From Pseudomonas sp. HOU2 (GTDB lineage Bacteria > Pseudomonadota > Gammaproteobacteria > Pseudomonadales > Pseudomonadaceae), in contig NZ_CP160398.1 in NCBI RefSeq assembly GCF_040729435.1, positions 4,755,001 to 4,819,000 on the forward strand: a stretch of DNA of 64,000 bases. Direction: 5' to 3'. Of this stretch, positions 2,382 through 63,564 are shown piece by piece. The position numbers and the translations under genes were made by a program. A model generated the notes under the pieces. The model ran no database searches. It worked only from the letters and a program-made list of their open reading frames with translations, and was not told the origin of the DNA. The first letter of the stretch is position 1, and each line of letters opens with the position of its first letter.

Positions 2382-2732
2382 AGTGCTCCACTCTTACTGT
2401 TGTAATTTTTTTGAGTTCTGGCGCCGTAGCAGCAGAACCGGGTCAGATATCTTTGCGATACCCTCCGGAAATGCCCCCGGCAACTGTACCGGTACAGTGT
2501 AGAGCGCCGGTTGTTGGCCTGGGAAGCGGGCGCCGAGGGGCAAAACTTGGGGGTGTCGCATTTTTGAATGAAAAAGACAGAATTGCGGCGGGGCATTCGT
2601 GGGCATATATCCCAATCACCAGCATTCCTTGGCGTTCCTGCTCTTTTCGTTCGGTGAAGCCATTTGCAACCGGGTTTTTCTGCCGGACCACCGACGTTAT
2701 CATTCGCGTCGATTTCTTTTCCGGACAGTCCC
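2382..2732. other. Intergenic region between braC and the DUF2288 gene
   Basis: This 351-bp divergent spacer must hold the promoters of braC (leftward) and the DUF2288 gene (rightward). Open frames here (for example 2443-2703 minus) have no ribosome site or recognisable product and I treat them as spurious. The one notable element is a 16-bp palindrome, listed separately. Confidence 0.6.
2483..2498. promoter_or_regulatory. Perfect 16-bp palindrome upstream of braC
   Basis: ACTGTACCGGTACAGT is a perfect dyad about 100 bp upstream of the braC start. It looks like an operator for a dimeric regulator; the regulator is unknown. No matching second copy was noticed elsewhere in the window. Confidence 0.45.
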
Positions 2733-3053
2733 ATGAATCAAGAACCTAGCACCCTCTATGCCAAGCTGCTTGGTGAAACCGCATCTATTACCTGGAAAGA
2801 GCTGGAGCCGTTCTTCGCCAAGGGTGCCCTATTGTGGGTCGACCCGGCCCTGGATTTGATCGCCGCCGCCGAGGCCGTGGCCGCGGACGATGGCGAGAAA
2901 GTCGCCGCCTGGCTGGCCGAAGACAAGGTCGCCAAGCTGTCTGAAACGCGGGCGCTGGATATTTTCGAGCGTGATCCGCAGCTGTGGGCGGTGGTGGTGA
3001 GTCCGTGGATTCTGATCCAGGAAAGGGCGGGCGATTCCAACGTTGCACCTTGA
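2733..3053 (+). CDS. DUF2288 family protein
   Basis: This small soluble protein has 106 residues and no assigned function; I recognise it as the short DUF2288 family common in gamma-proteobacteria. It starts MNQEPSTLYAKLLGETA, is acidic and alanine-rich, and has a helical middle (residues 40-75) ending in a conserved-looking 'LWAVVVSPWILIQ' stretch. A longer in-frame start at 2664 exists, but the ATG at 2733 gives the normal family length and follows a C/T-rich leader. A hairpin terminator lies 124 bp downstream. It shares its divergent promoter region with braC, which need not mean a shared function. Confidence 0.8.
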   Translation: MNQEPSTLYAKLLGETASITWKELEPFFAKGALLWVDPALDLIAAAEAVAADDGEKVAAWLAEDKVAKLSETRALDIFERDPQLWAVVVSPWILIQERAGDSNVAP

Positions 3054-3248: not shown

Positions 3249-3337
3249 ATCGCTGGCAAGCCAGCTCCCACAGGTTTTGTGGTGTTCACAAATAGTTGTG
3301 TTCACGCAGATCCTGTGGGAGCTGGCTTGCCAGCGAT
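3249..3337. repeat. REP pair, family A, inverted
   Basis: A 26-base unit ending CAGCTCCCACAGG (3249-3274) and its exact inverse (3312-3337) face each other across 37 bp. Each unit is itself palindromic around TGGCAAGCCA. Such doublets are typical Pseudomonas REPINs. The pair sits 20 bp beyond the end of the tubulin-like gene. Confidence 0.9.
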
Positions 3338-3357: not shown

Positions 3358-5556
3358 TCAGACCGAGTAAGTCTTCCCGGTATGGTTATTCAGGGAAATA
3401 ACCTTGGTCTTGCCGATCCGGTGACGGTAGATCTCGCGCAGGTACTTGATCGACTTCTTCACGCAATCGCGCGACAGGCGAATGTCGTTGATCGAGACGA
3501 ACTTGTCTTTGTCGTTGATCAGCTCGCGGTACTTCTTCTCGTACATCGGTTTGATCGCGTACCAGTTGGTGTCGAGGATCTTCGCCGGATTTTCGAACTC
3601 GTTGAGCAAGTCGTCGATGCGGTCTTCGTCGAAGTCCTCATTAATGATGAAGTCGAGGATCGAGTTGTCCAGGGTTTCGTCGAAACGGTACGGGGTCTTG
3701 GCGAAGCAGCGCTTGATGAACGCCACGATCAGGGTCAGGAAGTCGTCCGACAGACACGGGCTCTTGGCGATCAGAGTGGTCAGCGACAGGTTGGCCGAGG
3801 CGCCGATCACCAGTGCATAGCGCTTGAGCGTGGTGTTGGGGAACAGGCTGTTGAGGTGCGTCTTCAACCGGTTCAGATCCATGTATGACAGCTTGTAGTC
3901 TTTGGGCAGCGAGACGATCGAGACTACCGACGAGCAGTTCTTGAAGAAGTGCAGGTCGTGCAACGCGGCGGCGTCGTAGCCGGAATTCTTGTACTGCTCC
4001 AGCGAGGCGCGATAGCGCTTGGATTCGATCGGCAGCAGGCTGATGCCTTCGATGGCCTGGGTGACCTTGTTGAAGTGCGGCAGATCGATCGAACGGAAGA
4101 ACAGGTCGTCGATGTTCAGGCGCTGCGGCTCTTTGTCGAACACCTTGAACTTGTCGCTGCTCGGCGGCGGGGTTTCCGGTACCACTGATTCGGCGTAGGC
4201 AATCGCCACCGGGCCGGCCAGGCTCATGAACAAGTCGTTGGCATCGAGGCGAATGGTTTCGCCGATGTCGATGCCGGCGCGGCGGAAGTAGTTCTGGTCG
4301 TAGTCGGTGGTCACCGCCTGCGCCGTCAGAATGTTGAAGATTTGCTGCGAGATGTACTGGTTAGCGTGCTTCTCCATCGCATTGACATCAATGTTCTGGA
4401 TGTTGCCGTCATCGCTCTCTTCGGCGTAACGCATGATGTCGTTGGAGATCAGCATCATCGCGTTCCATGGGCGGATACGGCCCATGACGCTGGCTTCGCT
4501 GCTGTCTTCATTGGCGAAGTTGTAGGAGAAATCCCATTCCTCCGACAGGTATTTGCACAGCAGGCGTCCGGCGTTGATGTGCAGCGCCTCGGACATTTCA
4601 CTGCGGTGATCGGAAATGTTCGGCAGCACGCAGATGCCGCTGGTGAAGATCGGCTCGAACACGAACGAATGCCCGCTCTTGCCGTCATGCTCGTCCATCG
4701 GCTTGGTGTCGAACGTCTTGTTCATGTACGAGTGCTGCTGGGCCAGGCCGAACTCCGAAGCCATGCCCGAACCGGTACCGCCGCCGGCACTGAAGATCGA
4801 AAAGTACAGGCGCGACTGGTTGGCCTTGATGCCGCAGCTGTCGATCAGGTACGAGTGGATCATTTTCCAGTCGGGGCTGGAGAAGCGCTGGGTGTCCTTG
4901 TTGAGGATGATCTTCGCCAGATACTGACCGAGGATCGGCGCGTTACCGGCGCCACCGGCGTGGACTTCGGACAAGTCCATGATCTTCATTTTGCTGTAGT
5001 CGCGCAGGAAGCCGCTTTTCTCGCCCTTGCGCGAAAAACGGATGCGCCCGGCGATGTCCTTGTCGAGGTCGCCGAGCATCACCAGCGGTTCGACGAGGAA
5101 CACCGGTTTGCTCGATTTGTTCGGGCCGATCCGCAGATTCTGCTTGATCCACTGCGCCGGGCTGTAGCCCTTGTCGGCCAGACGCCGGTCAGCGGCGCGG
5201 TCTTCGTTGTTGAATTCGTTGAGGTAGAACTTGCGCGCGTTGTACACCAGCTCCGCGACGTCGAGGGCGATGTTCGAGCCGCAGCGACCGAGGCCGATCA
5301 GGCACACCGAGGGAAATTCCTGGTCGTTGTGCTGCTCGTTGTCGCCTTCCAGGTGTGGCGGGCGCGGGAACACCAGATCACGCAGGCCATCGAGGTTGTC
5401 GAGGATGCGGTCGGTGTTGGTTTCGGTGTAGTACAGATATTGCTGAGTGCCCAGCGGGCGCGAAGGAGGCAATGGCTTCATCGGAGCCGGGCTGTTCGCC
5501 GCAGGGCTCAGGGTCAGATCGGATACCGCAGTGGCCGGATTGTTTTTAGAAGTCAT
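3358..5556 (-). CDS. Orphan tubulin/FtsZ-superfamily protein (predicted GTPase)
   Basis: This 732-residue protein has a tubulin-like GTP-binding core. The sequence shows GLGRCGSN (88-95), like the T1 loop of FtsZ; AGGAGNA (200-206), like the tubulin T3 loop SGAGNN; AGGGTGSG (257-264), matching the tubulin signature [SAG]GGTG[SA]G of the T4 loop; an asparagine in LISND (369-373), like the T6/H7 position of FtsZ IPND; and RLDAND (436-441), aligning with the catalytic NxDxxD T7 loop with both aspartates kept. About 80 proline- and charge-rich residues precede the core and about 270 residues follow it. It is far longer than FtsZ (about 390) and has no FtsZ C-terminal tail motif. It may belong to the 'tubulin-like' (Tubulin_2 or FtsZl) group of predicted membrane-remodelling proteins, but that assignment is inference. 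It is transcribed alone, divergently from the next gene, and no partner is visible. Confidence 0.8.
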   Translation of the reverse strand: MTSKNNPATAVSDLTLSPAANSPAPMKPLPPSRPLGTQQYLYYTETNTDRILDNLDGLRDLVFPRPPHLEGDNEQHNDQEFPSVCLIGLGRCGSNIALDVAELVYNARKFYLNEFNNEDRAADRRLADKGYSPAQWIKQNLRIGPNKSSKPVFLVEPLVMLGDLDKDIAGRIRFSRKGEKSGFLRDYSKMKIMDLSEVHAGGAGNAPILGQYLAKIILNKDTQRFSSPDWKMIHSYLIDSCGIKANQSRLYFSIFSAGGGTGSGMASEFGLAQQHSYMNKTFDTKPMDEHDGKSGHSFVFEPIFTSGICVLPNISDHRSEMSEALHINAGRLLCKYLSEEWDFSYNFANEDSSEASVMGRIRPWNAMMLISNDIMRYAEESDDGNIQNIDVNAMEKHANQYISQQIFNILTAQAVTTDYDQNYFRRAGIDIGETIRLDANDLFMSLAGPVAIAYAESVVPETPPPSSDKFKVFDKEPQRLNIDDLFFRSIDLPHFNKVTQAIEGISLLPIESKRYRASLEQYKNSGYDAAALHDLHFFKNCSSVVSIVSLPKDYKLSYMDLNRLKTHLNSLFPNTTLKRYALVIGASANLSLTTLIAKSPCLSDDFLTLIVAFIKRCFAKTPYRFDETLDNSILDFIINEDFDEDRIDDLLNEFENPAKILDTNWYAIKPMYEKKYRELINDKDKFVSINDIRLSRDCVKKSIKYLREIYRHRIGKTKVISLNNHTGKTYSV

Positions 5557-5753
5557 TGTGCGCCATATACCTGGACAGGGTTGGCTCGGCGACCGTTGTC
5601 ATCGAGCCTCACGGAAAGAGGATCTCGCGTCTTTGACTGCGCGTATTTGGCCCGGGCGTCAGGGGCTTGGCCTGATCGTCGCGCGGGGGAATCCTTTCCT
5701 GATCGTTCATGAATCGGCCATTATTCAGTGATCTTTAATCGAAAAGAGGCAAA

Positions 5754-6650
5754 ATGATGTCAACGCTACCTTCGTTGGGCTTTGCCGGAATCGGCCTGAT
5801 GGGCCTGCCGATGTGCCGTCGTCTGCTGGCGGCGGGTTATCCGCTGACCGTGTGGAACCGCAATCCGGCCAAGTGCGCGCCGCTGGTCGAAGCCGGCGCC
5901 CGGCAGGTGGCGAGCCCCGCTGAATTGTGTGAACACGCGGACATGGTGATGCTCTGTCTGGCCGACACGGCAGTGGTGCGCGAGGTGGTGTTTGGCGCCG
6001 GGGGTGTGGCTGAAGGTGCGAAAAACGGCCAGTTGCTGGTGGACTTTTCCAGCCTCGAACCGACGGCAACTCGCGAGATGGCGGCCGAGTTGGCAGGCAA
6101 GACCGGGATGAGCTGGCTCGATTCACCGGTGTCCGGCGGTGTGGTCGGTGCCGAGGCTGGCAGTCTGGCGATCATGGTCGGCGGCGAGGCGGGGGATCTG
6201 GATCGGGTGCGCCCGGTGCTGCTCAACCTCGGTCAACGGGTCACGCACATGGGCGGCATTGGCGCCGGGCAAGTGACCAAGGCCTGCAACCAGATGATCG
6301 TCGCCTGCAATGCGCTGGTGATTGCCGAAGTGGTGGCGCTGGCCGAACAGGCCGGAGTCGATGCGCGCTTGATCGCCGAGGCGCTGGCCGGTGGGTTTGC
6401 CGATTCGAAACCGTTGCAGATCCTCGCGCCGCAAATGGCCGAGAGCCGTTTTCAACCGGTGAAATGGCACGTGCGCACGCTGCTCAAAGACCTCGATACC
6501 GCAGTGAAATTCTCCCGCGAACAAGGCTCGGCCACGCCGATCAGCGGATTGGCCGCACAATTGATGCGCCTGCATGGGGCGCAGGGCTTTTTGCAGAAGG
6601 ATCCAGCGACACTGGTACAAATGTACCGCGCGCCAGACTCAACGGATTGA
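5754..6650 (+). CDS. NAD(P)-dependent oxidoreductase, 3-hydroxyisobutyrate dehydrogenase family
   Basis: This beta-hydroxyacid dehydrogenase has 298 residues. The N-terminal Rossmann motif is GFAGIGLMGLPM (residues 9-20). The substrate-binding signature DSPVSGGVVGAEAG lies near 122-135, and the catalytic lysine is in the motif GQVTKACNQ (about 176-184). The family oxidises or reduces small 3-hydroxyacids such as tartronate semialdehyde, 3-hydroxyisobutyrate or 4-hydroxybutyrate; the substrate here cannot be told from sequence. The ribosome site is AAGAGG before two consecutive ATG codons (5754 and 5757). Its last 110 bp overlap the 3' end of the converging cyclic-di-GMP gene. Confidence 0.88.
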   Translation: MMSTLPSLGFAGIGLMGLPMCRRLLAAGYPLTVWNRNPAKCAPLVEAGARQVASPAELCEHADMVMLCLADTAVVREVVFGAGGVAEGAKNGQLLVDFSSLEPTATREMAAELAGKTGMSWLDSPVSGGVVGAEAGSLAIMVGGEAGDLDRVRPVLLNLGQRVTHMGGIGAGQVTKACNQMIVACNALVIAEVVALAEQAGVDARLIAEALAGGFADSKPLQILAPQMAESRFQPVKWHVRTLLKDLDTAVKFSREQGSATPISGLAAQLMRLHGAQGFLQKDPATLVQMYRAPDSTD

Positions 6651-8823
6651 CCGCATGCGAGTGTTTACGCTGATTGATTTCTTCCAGCACCGGGCGTAAC
6701 TCGTCCAGCGGCACCGGACGGCTGAGCAGGTAGCCCTGAATGAAATCGCAGCCCGAGCGCTCAAGGAATTCGTACTGCTCCAGGCTTTCCACGCCTTCGG
6801 TCACCACCTGCAGATGCAGGGTGTGGGCCATGACGATGATCGCCTGGACGATCTCCATGTCGGCGGTTGCCTTGGGGATGTCGAGGATGAACGAACGGTC
6901 GATCTTCAGTGTGTTGAGCGGCAGGCGCTTGAGGTAGGCCAGCGATGAATAACCGGTGCCGAAGTCGTCGATTGACAGCGACACCCCGAGGGCGCGGATC
7001 TGCCGCAGCAACACCAGGGTGTTGGCGATGTTGCCCATCAGCGCATTTTCGGTGACTTCCAGTTCCAGGCGTTCCGGCGCGACGCCAGCGGTGCGCAGCG
7101 CATTTTCGATTTCATCGGCGAGTTCTTCCCGGGCAAGGTTGAGCGGCGAGCAGTTCCAGGCGATTTTCAGTTCGTCGCAGCCGTGGCGCGTCAGTTCGCC
7201 AAGGTCGGTGCAGGCCCGGCGCAGAACCCAGTTATCCAGTTCGGCAATCAGGCCGTTGGTTTCGGCAATCGCGATGAAACGATCCGGGGCCAGCAAGCCA
7301 TGCACCGGGTGCTGCCAGCGAATCAGCGCTTCGAGTTTGGTCACTCGACCGGTTTTCAGTTCGAAAATCGGCTGGTAGTAGAGCATCAGCCCGTTTTCTT
7401 CGCGCAGGGCGTGGCGCAGTTCTTCTTCCAGTTGCAGTTCGAGGCTGGCGCGGGTCTTCATGTTGGAGCTGAAAAAATGCAGGCCGTTACGCCCGGCGCC
7501 TTTGGATTGATAGAGCGCCAGATCCGCGTGCTTGAGCAGTTCTTCGCAGGTGGTGCCGTCGTCGGGAAACAGGCTGATGCCGATGCTGGTGGTCATCACC
7601 ATACGCCGTCCGGCCAGTTCGATCGGCTCCTTCATTTTCAGCATGATCCGTTGCGCCATGTTGCGCGCTTCTTCGCGGTCATGCAGGCCGATCAGGATGC
7701 AGAACTCGTCGCCGCCGAAGCGCGCAACCACGTCTTCATGGCTGCGCACCGAGCCTTTGATGTGATTGGCGATGACTTTGAGCAGGGCGTCACCGGCGTC
7801 ATGGCCGAGGCTGTCGTTGATCCTTTTGAAGTGGTCGATGTCGAGAAACATCACCGCGAGCATGCCGCCTTCGCTGGTTTTCTGGTTGAGTTTTTCGGCG
7901 AAGATCTGGTTGAAACCGCGGCGGTTGATCAGGTTGGTCAGCGCGTCGTAATTGGCCACTTGCTGCAGTGACATGCGCGCCTGATCGAGCTGGCCGAGCA
8001 GGGCGTTGACCCGGCGCAGGTCGTGCTCCTTGTTCTGCAGTTTCTTGTCGGCGAGTGCCGCACTGATCGCGCTGCCGAGAATCAGCAGGATGATCAGCGC
8101 GACCGTCAGACCCAGTTGCAGATGGCTGGTTTCGCTCGCCATGGTCGGCGCGGTGCCTTCGGGCAAGACCAGATGCAACGCGGCCATGCCGGTGAAGTGC
8201 ATGCTGATGATGCCGGCGCCGAGGATCACTGCGGCGGTGTATTTGAGCAATTGATGAAAACGCCCGCTGCCTTCACGCAGATAACCGGCGACCCACAGTG
8301 CGGCGAAGCTGGCGCCGATGGCAATCACGATCGACAGGCAGAACAGCAGTGGCTGATAGTAGGCAGTGGCCGCCGAGTGCATCGCCGCCATGCCGACGTA
8401 ATGCATGCCGGCGATGCCCAGGCCAATGACGATCGCGGTTTTCAGGTAGTGCACCAGGCTGGGTTGCGGCTCACTCAAGGTGTGCATCGCCAGCCACGAG
8501 GCGAGCAGGGCGATCAGCAGGGAGAACAGGGTAATCGCCAGATCGTAGTGGACTTCGATCGGCGCCTGGAATGCGAGCATGGCGATGAAATGCATGGCCC
8601 AGATGCCGCCGGCCAGGCACGAGGCGCCGATCCAGCGCCACACCCGTTGCGAGCCCGGGTCTTCGGCATGCCCGACCCGCTCGGCCATGTCGAGGGTGGC
8701 AAAACTCGCGGCGCAGGCGACCAGATAGGCCACCAGCACCAGCAAGGGATTATGGGTGCAATCGAGAATGACCTGCCCGCTCTCCGGCAGCTCGGTAACA
8801 AACTGCAAACCAAGCCACTCCAT
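6541..8823 (-). CDS. MHYT-GGDEF-EAL membrane protein, bifunctional cyclic-di-GMP turnover
   Basis: This protein has 760 residues. The N-terminal MHYT sensor (about 1-250) has seven predicted membrane helices and the motifs MHFIAM, MHYVGMAAMH and MHFTGMAALH, thought to bind copper and sense a diatomic gas. A linker helix leads to a GGDEF domain with intact RFGGDEF. The residues aligned with the inhibitory RxxD site read SHED, so feedback inhibition may be lost. The EAL domain keeps EALIRW and DDFGTGYSS, suggesting phosphodiesterase competence. The architecture matches P. aeruginosa MucR and NbdA, but I cannot say which is the ortholog. The last 35 residues are encoded antisense to the oxidoreductase gene and lie beyond the normal EAL end. 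Confidence 0.93.
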   Translation of the reverse strand: MEWLGLQFVTELPESGQVILDCTHNPLLVLVAYLVACAASFATLDMAERVGHAEDPGSQRVWRWIGASCLAGGIWAMHFIAMLAFQAPIEVHYDLAITLFSLLIALLASWLAMHTLSEPQPSLVHYLKTAIVIGLGIAGMHYVGMAAMHSAATAYYQPLLFCLSIVIAIGASFAALWVAGYLREGSGRFHQLLKYTAAVILGAGIISMHFTGMAALHLVLPEGTAPTMASETSHLQLGLTVALIILLILGSAISAALADKKLQNKEHDLRRVNALLGQLDQARMSLQQVANYDALTNLINRRGFNQIFAEKLNQKTSEGGMLAVMFLDIDHFKRINDSLGHDAGDALLKVIANHIKGSVRSHEDVVARFGGDEFCILIGLHDREEARNMAQRIMLKMKEPIELAGRRMVMTTSIGISLFPDDGTTCEELLKHADLALYQSKGAGRNGLHFFSSNMKTRASLELQLEEELRHALREENGLMLYYQPIFELKTGRVTKLEALIRWQHPVHGLLAPDRFIAIAETNGLIAELDNWVLRRACTDLGELTRHGCDELKIAWNCSPLNLAREELADEIENALRTAGVAPERLELEVTENALMGNIANTLVLLRQIRALGVSLSIDDFGTGYSSLAYLKRLPLNTLKIDRSFILDIPKATADMEIVQAIIVMAHTLHLQVVTEGVESLEQYEFLERSGCDFIQGYLLSRPVPLDELRPVLEEINQRKHSHAVNPLSLARGTFVPVSLDPSAKSPAPHAGASIVRPIR

Positions 8824-10994: not shown

Positions 10995-11085
10995 TATCGC
11001 TGGCAAGCCAGCTCCCACAGTGACCGAGTCATACGCATAATTTGTAAACACTCCAAACCCTGTGGGAGCTGGCTTGCCAGCGATA
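10995..11085. repeat. REP pair, family A, inverted
   Basis: Units at 10995-11020 and 11060-11085 have the same 26-base sequence as the pair at 3249 and face each other across 39 bp. The left unit begins five bases after the MFS stop codon. Confidence 0.9.
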
Positions 11086-53124: not shown

Positions 53125-53218
53125 CCTGTGGGAGCTGGCTTGCCAGCGATGACGGTGTGTCAGTCAACAGAGATATAGCCTGTCCCGCCGCTATCGCTGG
53201 CAAGCCAGCTCCCACAGG
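53125..53218. repeat. REP pair, family A, inverted
   Basis: Units at 53125-53150 and 53193-53218 face each other across 42 bp, between the small membrane gene and the YceI gene. Confidence 0.9.
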
Positions 53219-63468: not shown

Positions 63469-63564
63469 CATCGCGGGCAAGCCCGCTCCCACAGGTTTCT
63501 CTGATGCTCACAAAATTTTGTGGTCGCTGAAGAACTCTGTGGGAGCGGGCTTGCCCGCGATGGC
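63469..63564. repeat. REP pair, family E, inverted
   Basis: Units at 63469-63495 and 63537-63564 (core GCGGGCAAGCCCGC) face each other across 41 bp. This is the only pair of this family in the window. Confidence 0.9.

Follow-up and report, generated by a model that had tools for sequence, protein, structure and literature searches.

A predicted tubulin-superfamily protein of the FtsZl2 family in Pseudomonas sp. HOU2, carried beside the usual FtsZ and patchily distributed

The FtsZl2 locus

The window, meaning the whole stretch of DNA that was analyzed, comprises 64,000 nucleotides of the Pseudomonas sp. HOU2 genome (contig NZ_CP160398.1, positions 4,755,001–4,819,000). A single open frame of 732 codons occupies window positions 3358–5556 on the minus strand, with its start codon at 5556. 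Based on the open frame, an alignment of its homologues and a paper from 2010, it was assigned to a tubulin/FtsZ-superfamily protein and is called the FtsZl2 gene below. The translated protein contained five nucleotide-loop motifs, all at the residues given in the initial annotation: a T1 loop, GLGRCGSN, at residues 88–95 (5272–5295, minus strand, as are those that follow); a T3 loop, AGGAGNA, at 200–206 (4939–4959); a T4 signature, AGGGTGSG, at 257–264 (4765–4788); a T6 motif, LISND, at 369–373 (4438–4452); and a T7 motif, RLDAND, at 436–441 (4234–4251), which includes D438 and D441. This is the order of the corresponding loops in the tubulin/FtsZ superfamily. By analogy with tubulin and FtsZ, Asn372 in T6 is proposed to contact the guanine base. 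Helix H7 was placed by eye at about residues 390–416, with N399 as the proposed H7 residue.

The region after T7 (residues 442–732, window positions 3361–4233) is 291 residues long. Judged by eye, residues ≈540–600 could form the superfamily's second domain (S8-H10-S9-S10). The Pfam scan of FtsZl2 members listed 22 families, and both FtsZ_C and Tubulin_C were absent from that list; AlphaFold modeled this region with low confidence. The protein had no transmembrane-like stretch, the highest mean hydropathy over 19 residues being 1.4.

The division FtsZ of this organism was found as a separate gene in the same genome (G000:C1:2139502-2140695), encoding 398 amino acids, as had been expected from the annotation. 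Compared with this FtsZ, the FtsZl2 protein has ≈70 more residues ahead of T1, 82 more between T1 and T4 (a distance of 169 residues versus 87), 76 more between T4 and T7, and ≈106 more after T7. The extra length is thus distributed along the protein, and the ≈270 extra C-terminal residues initially ascribed to it overstate the tail.

Upstream, an intergenic region (5557–5753), in which the repeat search showed no iteron array, separates the FtsZl2 gene from a divergently transcribed NAD-binding, 3-hydroxyisobutyrate-dehydrogenase-like oxidoreductase gene (5754–6650, plus strand), which was observed next to FtsZl2 in Pseudomonas; the divergent arrangement had been noted before. Beyond it lies a gene annotated as an MHYT-GGDEF-EAL c-di-GMP enzyme (6541–8823, minus strand), which we treat solely as a lead. 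On the other side, a DUF2288 gene with an uncertain start codon (2664–3053, plus strand) converges on the FtsZl2 gene. The window also held four inverted pairs of a 23-nt element, GTGGGAGC(T/G)GGCTTGCC, at 3249–3337, 10996–11084, 53128–53215 and 63470–63561 (eight matches versus zero expected), one pair lying directly downstream of the FtsZl2 gene. We take these to be REP/REPIN-like repeats typical of Pseudomonas.

Conserved motifs and profile matches

Searches with three queries returned 659, 647 and 623 homologues at E ≤ 0.001. The best 120 matches of each query were listed, and the named homologues among them were called hypothetical or uncharacterized. When 114 homologues were aligned, the motifs proved almost invariant. 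Identical in all 114 were G88, G90, C92, G93, S94 and N95 in T1, with slight variation at L89 and R91; H199–G202 and G204–P207 in T3 (AGGxGNAP), with A203 replaced by serine in 25; S256–A266 in T4 (SAGGGTGSGMA); S371, N372 and D373 in T6, together with N399; and R436–F443 in T7 (RLDANDLF). Such invariance shows that the five motifs are not due to chance. The key residues of the GTP site were complete and both T7 aspartates kept throughout, and no aligned homologue lacked GGGTG or the aspartates.

The motifs had originally been divided into a tubulin-type T3 and T4 and an FtsZ-type T1 and T7. That split is not clean: GAGNAPxxG in T3 also resembles the GAGANPxxG of FtsZ, and GRCGSN in T1 is similar to the GQCGNQ of tubulin.

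Profile searches gave weak but universal support for the superfamily. The HOU2 protein matched Pfam Tubulin (PF00091) at E = 0.0027 and Tubulin_2 (PF13809) at E = 0.005, both below the cut-offs (PF00091, 18.5 bits for P0001 versus 33; PF13809, 16.6 bits for this protein versus 27). At E ≤ 1, PF00091 matched 63/63 scanned FtsZl2 members (best 1.1e-4) and PF13809 matched 59/63 (best 0.001); for the two members whose scores were displayed, both were under the curated cut-offs. One relative, P0228, carried a precomputed PF13809 label, yet reached 18.8 of the 27 bits in our own scan. In the same scan, the probably unrelated DUF6562 matched 23 of the 63 members with E-values down to 4e-4, so that the Pfam E-values by themselves are no proof of superfamily membership. 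Nothing credible was found for the protein in NCBIfam, PADLOC or PHROGs. The single sequence matched no PDB chain at E ≤ 1, and the family profile matched no FtsZ or tubulin in the PDB at E ≤ 10, giving chance L23 matches only. When the profile was aligned by hhalign with profiles of 30 and 60 proteobacterial FtsZ proteins, the T4 region alone aligned.

Two AlphaFold models were poor, one from an 83-row alignment (pLDDT 46.1, pTM 0.35) and one from a 114-row alignment that amounted to only ≈16 effective sequences at 80% (pLDDT 52.7, pTM 0.41). Structure searches with both returned no matches, which is not meaningful with such models, and the tubulin fold was neither confirmed nor refuted by them.

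Assignment to the FtsZl2 family

Makarova and Koonin (2010; PMC2875224) named two families, FtsZl1 and FtsZl2. The type protein of FtsZl2 is PFL_1302 from P. fluorescens Pf-5, and the family was named at the time with no clue to its function. In that paper, FtsZl2 is described as having a GGGTG(S/T)G signature, every T loop including T7, an H7 helix, inserts between T1 and T4, and a C-terminal region of ≈300 residues with mixed alpha/beta structure and no coiled coil. It is reported from Proteobacteria including P. fluorescens, with no associated genes, and the type protein was linked to PF00091 by HHpred (E = 0.0033).

By comparison with this description, the HOU2 protein is assigned to the FtsZl2 family. 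The testable features agree and none was found to differ: GGGTGSG lies at residues 258–264 in 114/114 homologues; the nucleotide-domain motifs T1, T4, T6, T7 and H7 are present by sequence, H7 as placed by eye; the 169 residues between T1 and T4, versus 87 in the organism's own FtsZ, correspond to the inserts; and across 56 loci no neighbor cluster occurred in more than three of 11 families. Loci named P. fluorescens were found with homologues at 96–98% identity. A tubulin/FtsZ-superfamily protein distinct from FtsZ, as initially proposed, is supported by motif order, invariance, the Pfam matches and the 2010 publication. The label "orphan" holds in that the gene has no conserved neighbor, and fails in that the family was already known.

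We found no experimental or biochemical work on FtsZl2 in the open-licence literature searched. A phylogeny of FtsZ and tubulin from 2023 (PMC9871819) set aside a Tubulin_2 "FtsZ-like" group, and the word Pseudomonas does not occur in its main text.

Distribution, integrity and transfer

FtsZl2 is carried by many Pseudomonas and by some other gamma-proteobacteria, beside the usual FtsZ; exactly one FtsZ match was present in each of the 30 FtsZl2-bearing genomes tested. With the HOU2 genome included in the counts, FtsZl2 was found in 27 of 36 genomes of its own genus and absent from the other nine, and in 1/21 other genomes of the order. Broader samples gave 9/398 genomes (phylum sample), 16/293 (order sample) and 2/369 (class sample). 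It was present in one of three genomes from the order of G724 and in 28 of 295 from the order of G438, spread over 12 of 99 genera. FtsZl2 is thus patchy within its own genus and rarer elsewhere. Across these genome searches, no genome with a whole copy had a second one.

Two of the 28 copies in the order of G438 were broken, consisting of pieces with several stops (L140 in G438 and L215 in G1154), which shows that the gene can be lost. In Pseudomonas, the frame was intact in all 80 of the best loci (of 567 found). Eleven pairs were compared for dN/dS, and the three closest gave values of 0.037–0.063, which were as low past residue 460 as ahead of it; seven more distant pairs (0.065–0.244) were left out as their dS values look unreliable, and the remaining pair (L189) yielded no value. 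FtsZl2 is under purifying selection. No match was found in 72,556 plasmid records, in 50,697 phage records or in viral-contig collections.

FtsZl2 was compared with FtsZ from 30 genomes having one FtsZ match apiece. Within the genus, FtsZl2 divergence was about twice that of FtsZ (median ratio 2.0, 21 pairs), and between families it was smaller than that of FtsZ (median ratio 0.84, 391 pairs). In the FtsZl2 tree, in which four rows, G048 above all, were long-branched, G1172 (family f54) grouped with family f25 of another order (support 100/99), G724 (f159) was nested in the genus Pseudomonas (97/85 and 95/91), and f50 was nested in f41 (94/90). The FtsZ tree had none of these placements. On the FtsZl2 data, AU tests rejected the order of HOU2 as one clade (p-AU 1e-32), as well as the order of G438 (p = 0.0015); of three groups chosen post hoc, with the data already seen, the f54 rows were rejected (p = 0.0036), f1 barely so (p = 0.046) and f41 not (p = 0.27). 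Judged from these trees and the comparison with FtsZ, FtsZl2 has been transferred across orders as a solitary gene.

Neighboring genes

Among the 80 closest Pseudomonas loci, 76 carried the GGDEF-EAL, oxidoreductase, FtsZl2 and DUF2288 genes in one order; in the remaining four, at least one was missing from the stretch covered. Beyond the closest 80, the arrangement around FtsZl2 differed, the oxidoreductase often lying near FtsZl2 within Pseudomonas on either side. A close orthologue of the oxidoreductase (at least 71%) was also present in 4/13 Pseudomonas lacking FtsZl2, and in 3/3 tested that carry it. In one Pseudomonas without FtsZl2 (G003), the DUF2288 and oxidoreductase matches were ≈0.16 kb apart, a gap that looks like an empty FtsZl2 site.

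Sixty loci with flanks were collected across families, 56 of which yielded the FtsZl2 gene; of the other four, L147 and L153 were missed by the ORF picker though their frames had no stops, and L140 and L215 are the broken copies. Among the 56, which represent 17 genus groups, no neighboring cluster was present in more than three of the 11 families. There was no iteron array in the flanks, and no vWA, kinase, GTPase or OmpA-like gene near FtsZl2 in 12 loci read by eye. In family f14, a lipoprotein-like gene of 461–479 amino acids was divergent to FtsZl2 in both loci (L137:164-1549 and L138:3311-4750); the one in L137 had no Pfam match at E ≤ 1e-4.

A GGDEF motif was found in 18/203 ORFs within 2.5 kb of FtsZl2 and in 1/376 ORFs farther away in the same loci, the nearby ones being from 5/17 genus groups and 5/11 families. 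Their architectures differed: MHYT type in f1 (8/16 loci), PAS type in f159, and by motif only in f306 and in f41 (1/4 loci). In f25, a large GGDEF gene lay beside FtsZl2 in 7/10 loci (L126, L128, L130–L133 and L135), and the only one of these scanned, in L126, was an ammonium transporter-PAS-GGDEF-EAL fusion. A random control of 40 stretches of 20 kb from 10 genomes, half of the 80 intended, had the motif in 3/609 ORFs, and 2.7% of positions were within 2.5 kb of one (4.0% as the mean of groups). Binomial values for the 17 groups were 7e-5 and 4e-4, which are too optimistic, since the GGDEF family was picked post hoc, groups with multiple loci had several chances, and the control was half-sized. 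The occurrence of c-di-GMP enzymes of differing architecture near FtsZl2 is consequently a weak, post hoc lead.

Discussion

FtsZl2 shares with FtsZ the order of the T1, T3, T4, T6 and T7 motifs, T7 reading LDANDL versus VDFADV. It differs in its length (732 versus 398 amino acids), is absent from 9/36 genomes of the genus, has been transferred horizontally and coexists with FtsZ in 30/30 genomes tested. The relationship to FtsZl1/Tubulin_2 (PF13809) is one of weak profile similarity (59/63 members at E ≤ 1), and PF13809 was found in 7/398 phylum-sample genomes (six over the cut-off), none of them among the nine with FtsZl2. According to the 2010 paper (PMC2875224), it is FtsZl1, not FtsZl2, that has a coiled coil, lacks a recognizable T6-H7 and occurs in vWA/kinase/OmpA operons. 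The same paper rests the idea of membrane remodeling on FtsZl1, and the membrane-remodeling role initially suggested for the HOU2 protein is not supported.

Some other matches turned up in the searches. Tubulin_2 matches in two short frames, of 462 codons in L318 (G391) and 524 in L319 (G449), perhaps represent further tubulin-like families, the four strongest matches being in frames of more than 1100 codons. Besides its normal FtsZ match, genome G061 had a second, short PF00091 match in a 194-codon frame (G061:C13:2257-2679).

In the tubulin superfamily, GTP is bound by loops T1–T6 of one subunit, and the acidic T7 residues of the next subunit complete the catalytic site. We consider it likely that the FtsZl2 protein is a chromosomally encoded, soluble, GTP-binding protein that acts as an accessory, GTP-driven, self-assembling cytoskeletal filament or switch, serving neither division nor plasmid or phage segregation. 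One FtsZl2 subunit would hold GTP by its T1, T3, T4 and T6, the following subunit would supply the T7 aspartates that complete the active site, and hydrolysis would occur upon head-to-tail assembly. The identity of these aspartates in 114/114 homologues argues for such assembly-coupled hydrolysis. The filament or switch would work with no co-transcribed partner, its gene being acquired and lost singly. Against a role in division are the presence of FtsZ alongside, the loss in some lineages and the single-gene transfer; against a role in segregation are the absence from plasmid and phage collections and the lack of centromere repeats and of a conserved partner.

The chief rival, which we regard as unlikely, is a tubulin-superfamily GTPase that retained the pocket but forms no filaments and serves as a switch or an enzyme, either as a monomer or as a dimer, with the inserts and the long C-terminal part blocking the longitudinal contacts. 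The family-specific inserts between T1 and T7, the ≈106 more residues than FtsZ after T7, and a C-terminal part as constrained as the GTPase part would all be consistent with such a protein. However, T7 in the superfamily acts across the subunit interface, and its strict conservation, with both aspartates, would be hard to explain in a monomer.

FtsZl2 might also act on its own in defence or stress, for instance by sensing phage takeover of the cytoskeleton, as its patchiness, horizontal transfer, solitary nature and losses (broken in G438 and G1154) could suggest. We find this improbable in light of the lack of a PADLOC match, the one fixed position of the gene across the closest 80 Pseudomonas loci (other Pseudomonas differ), the purifying selection and the almost invariant core. 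It is very improbable that the motifs arose by convergence in an unrelated, Rossmann-type nucleotide-binding protein. Neither AlphaFold nor the profile searches confirmed the fold, but five motifs, including GGGTG[ST]G and T7, occur in the right order family-wide, Pfam Tubulin matched 63/63 members (E ≤ 1), and the 2010 paper links the type protein to PF00091 by HHpred.

TubZ and PhuZ are bacterial tubulins that do not function in division. A segregation tubulin of this kind, stranded on the chromosome, could account for the horizontal transfer and patchiness, but is already disfavored and hardly credible, given the absence of matches in the plasmid, phage and viral-contig collections, neighbor clusters in at most three of 11 families, flanks with no iteron array or other centromere-like repeats, and one arrangement in 76/80 of the closest Pseudomonas loci.

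More tentatively, the accessory filament or switch favored above might be a bacterial tubulin of a third functional class, a self-sufficient, GTP-driven filament that spreads between chromosomes as a single gene. It is possibly tied to surface life governed by c-di-GMP, a suggestion that comes from the recurrence of GGDEF(-EAL) genes of different architecture beside FtsZl2.

Because the gene is solitary, losable and intact in 80/80 of the closest loci, and its product appears soluble, one deletion and one purified protein should be informative. FtsZl2 is a second, conserved tubulin-like protein of common bacteria that grow readily in the laboratory, seemingly uncharacterized in the open-licence literature since 2010. 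If the more tentative reading is true, it would stand as a tubulin class beside the FtsZ of division and the DNA-segregating TubZ and PhuZ, and it could reveal whether bacteria use tubulin filaments beyond division or DNA segregation.
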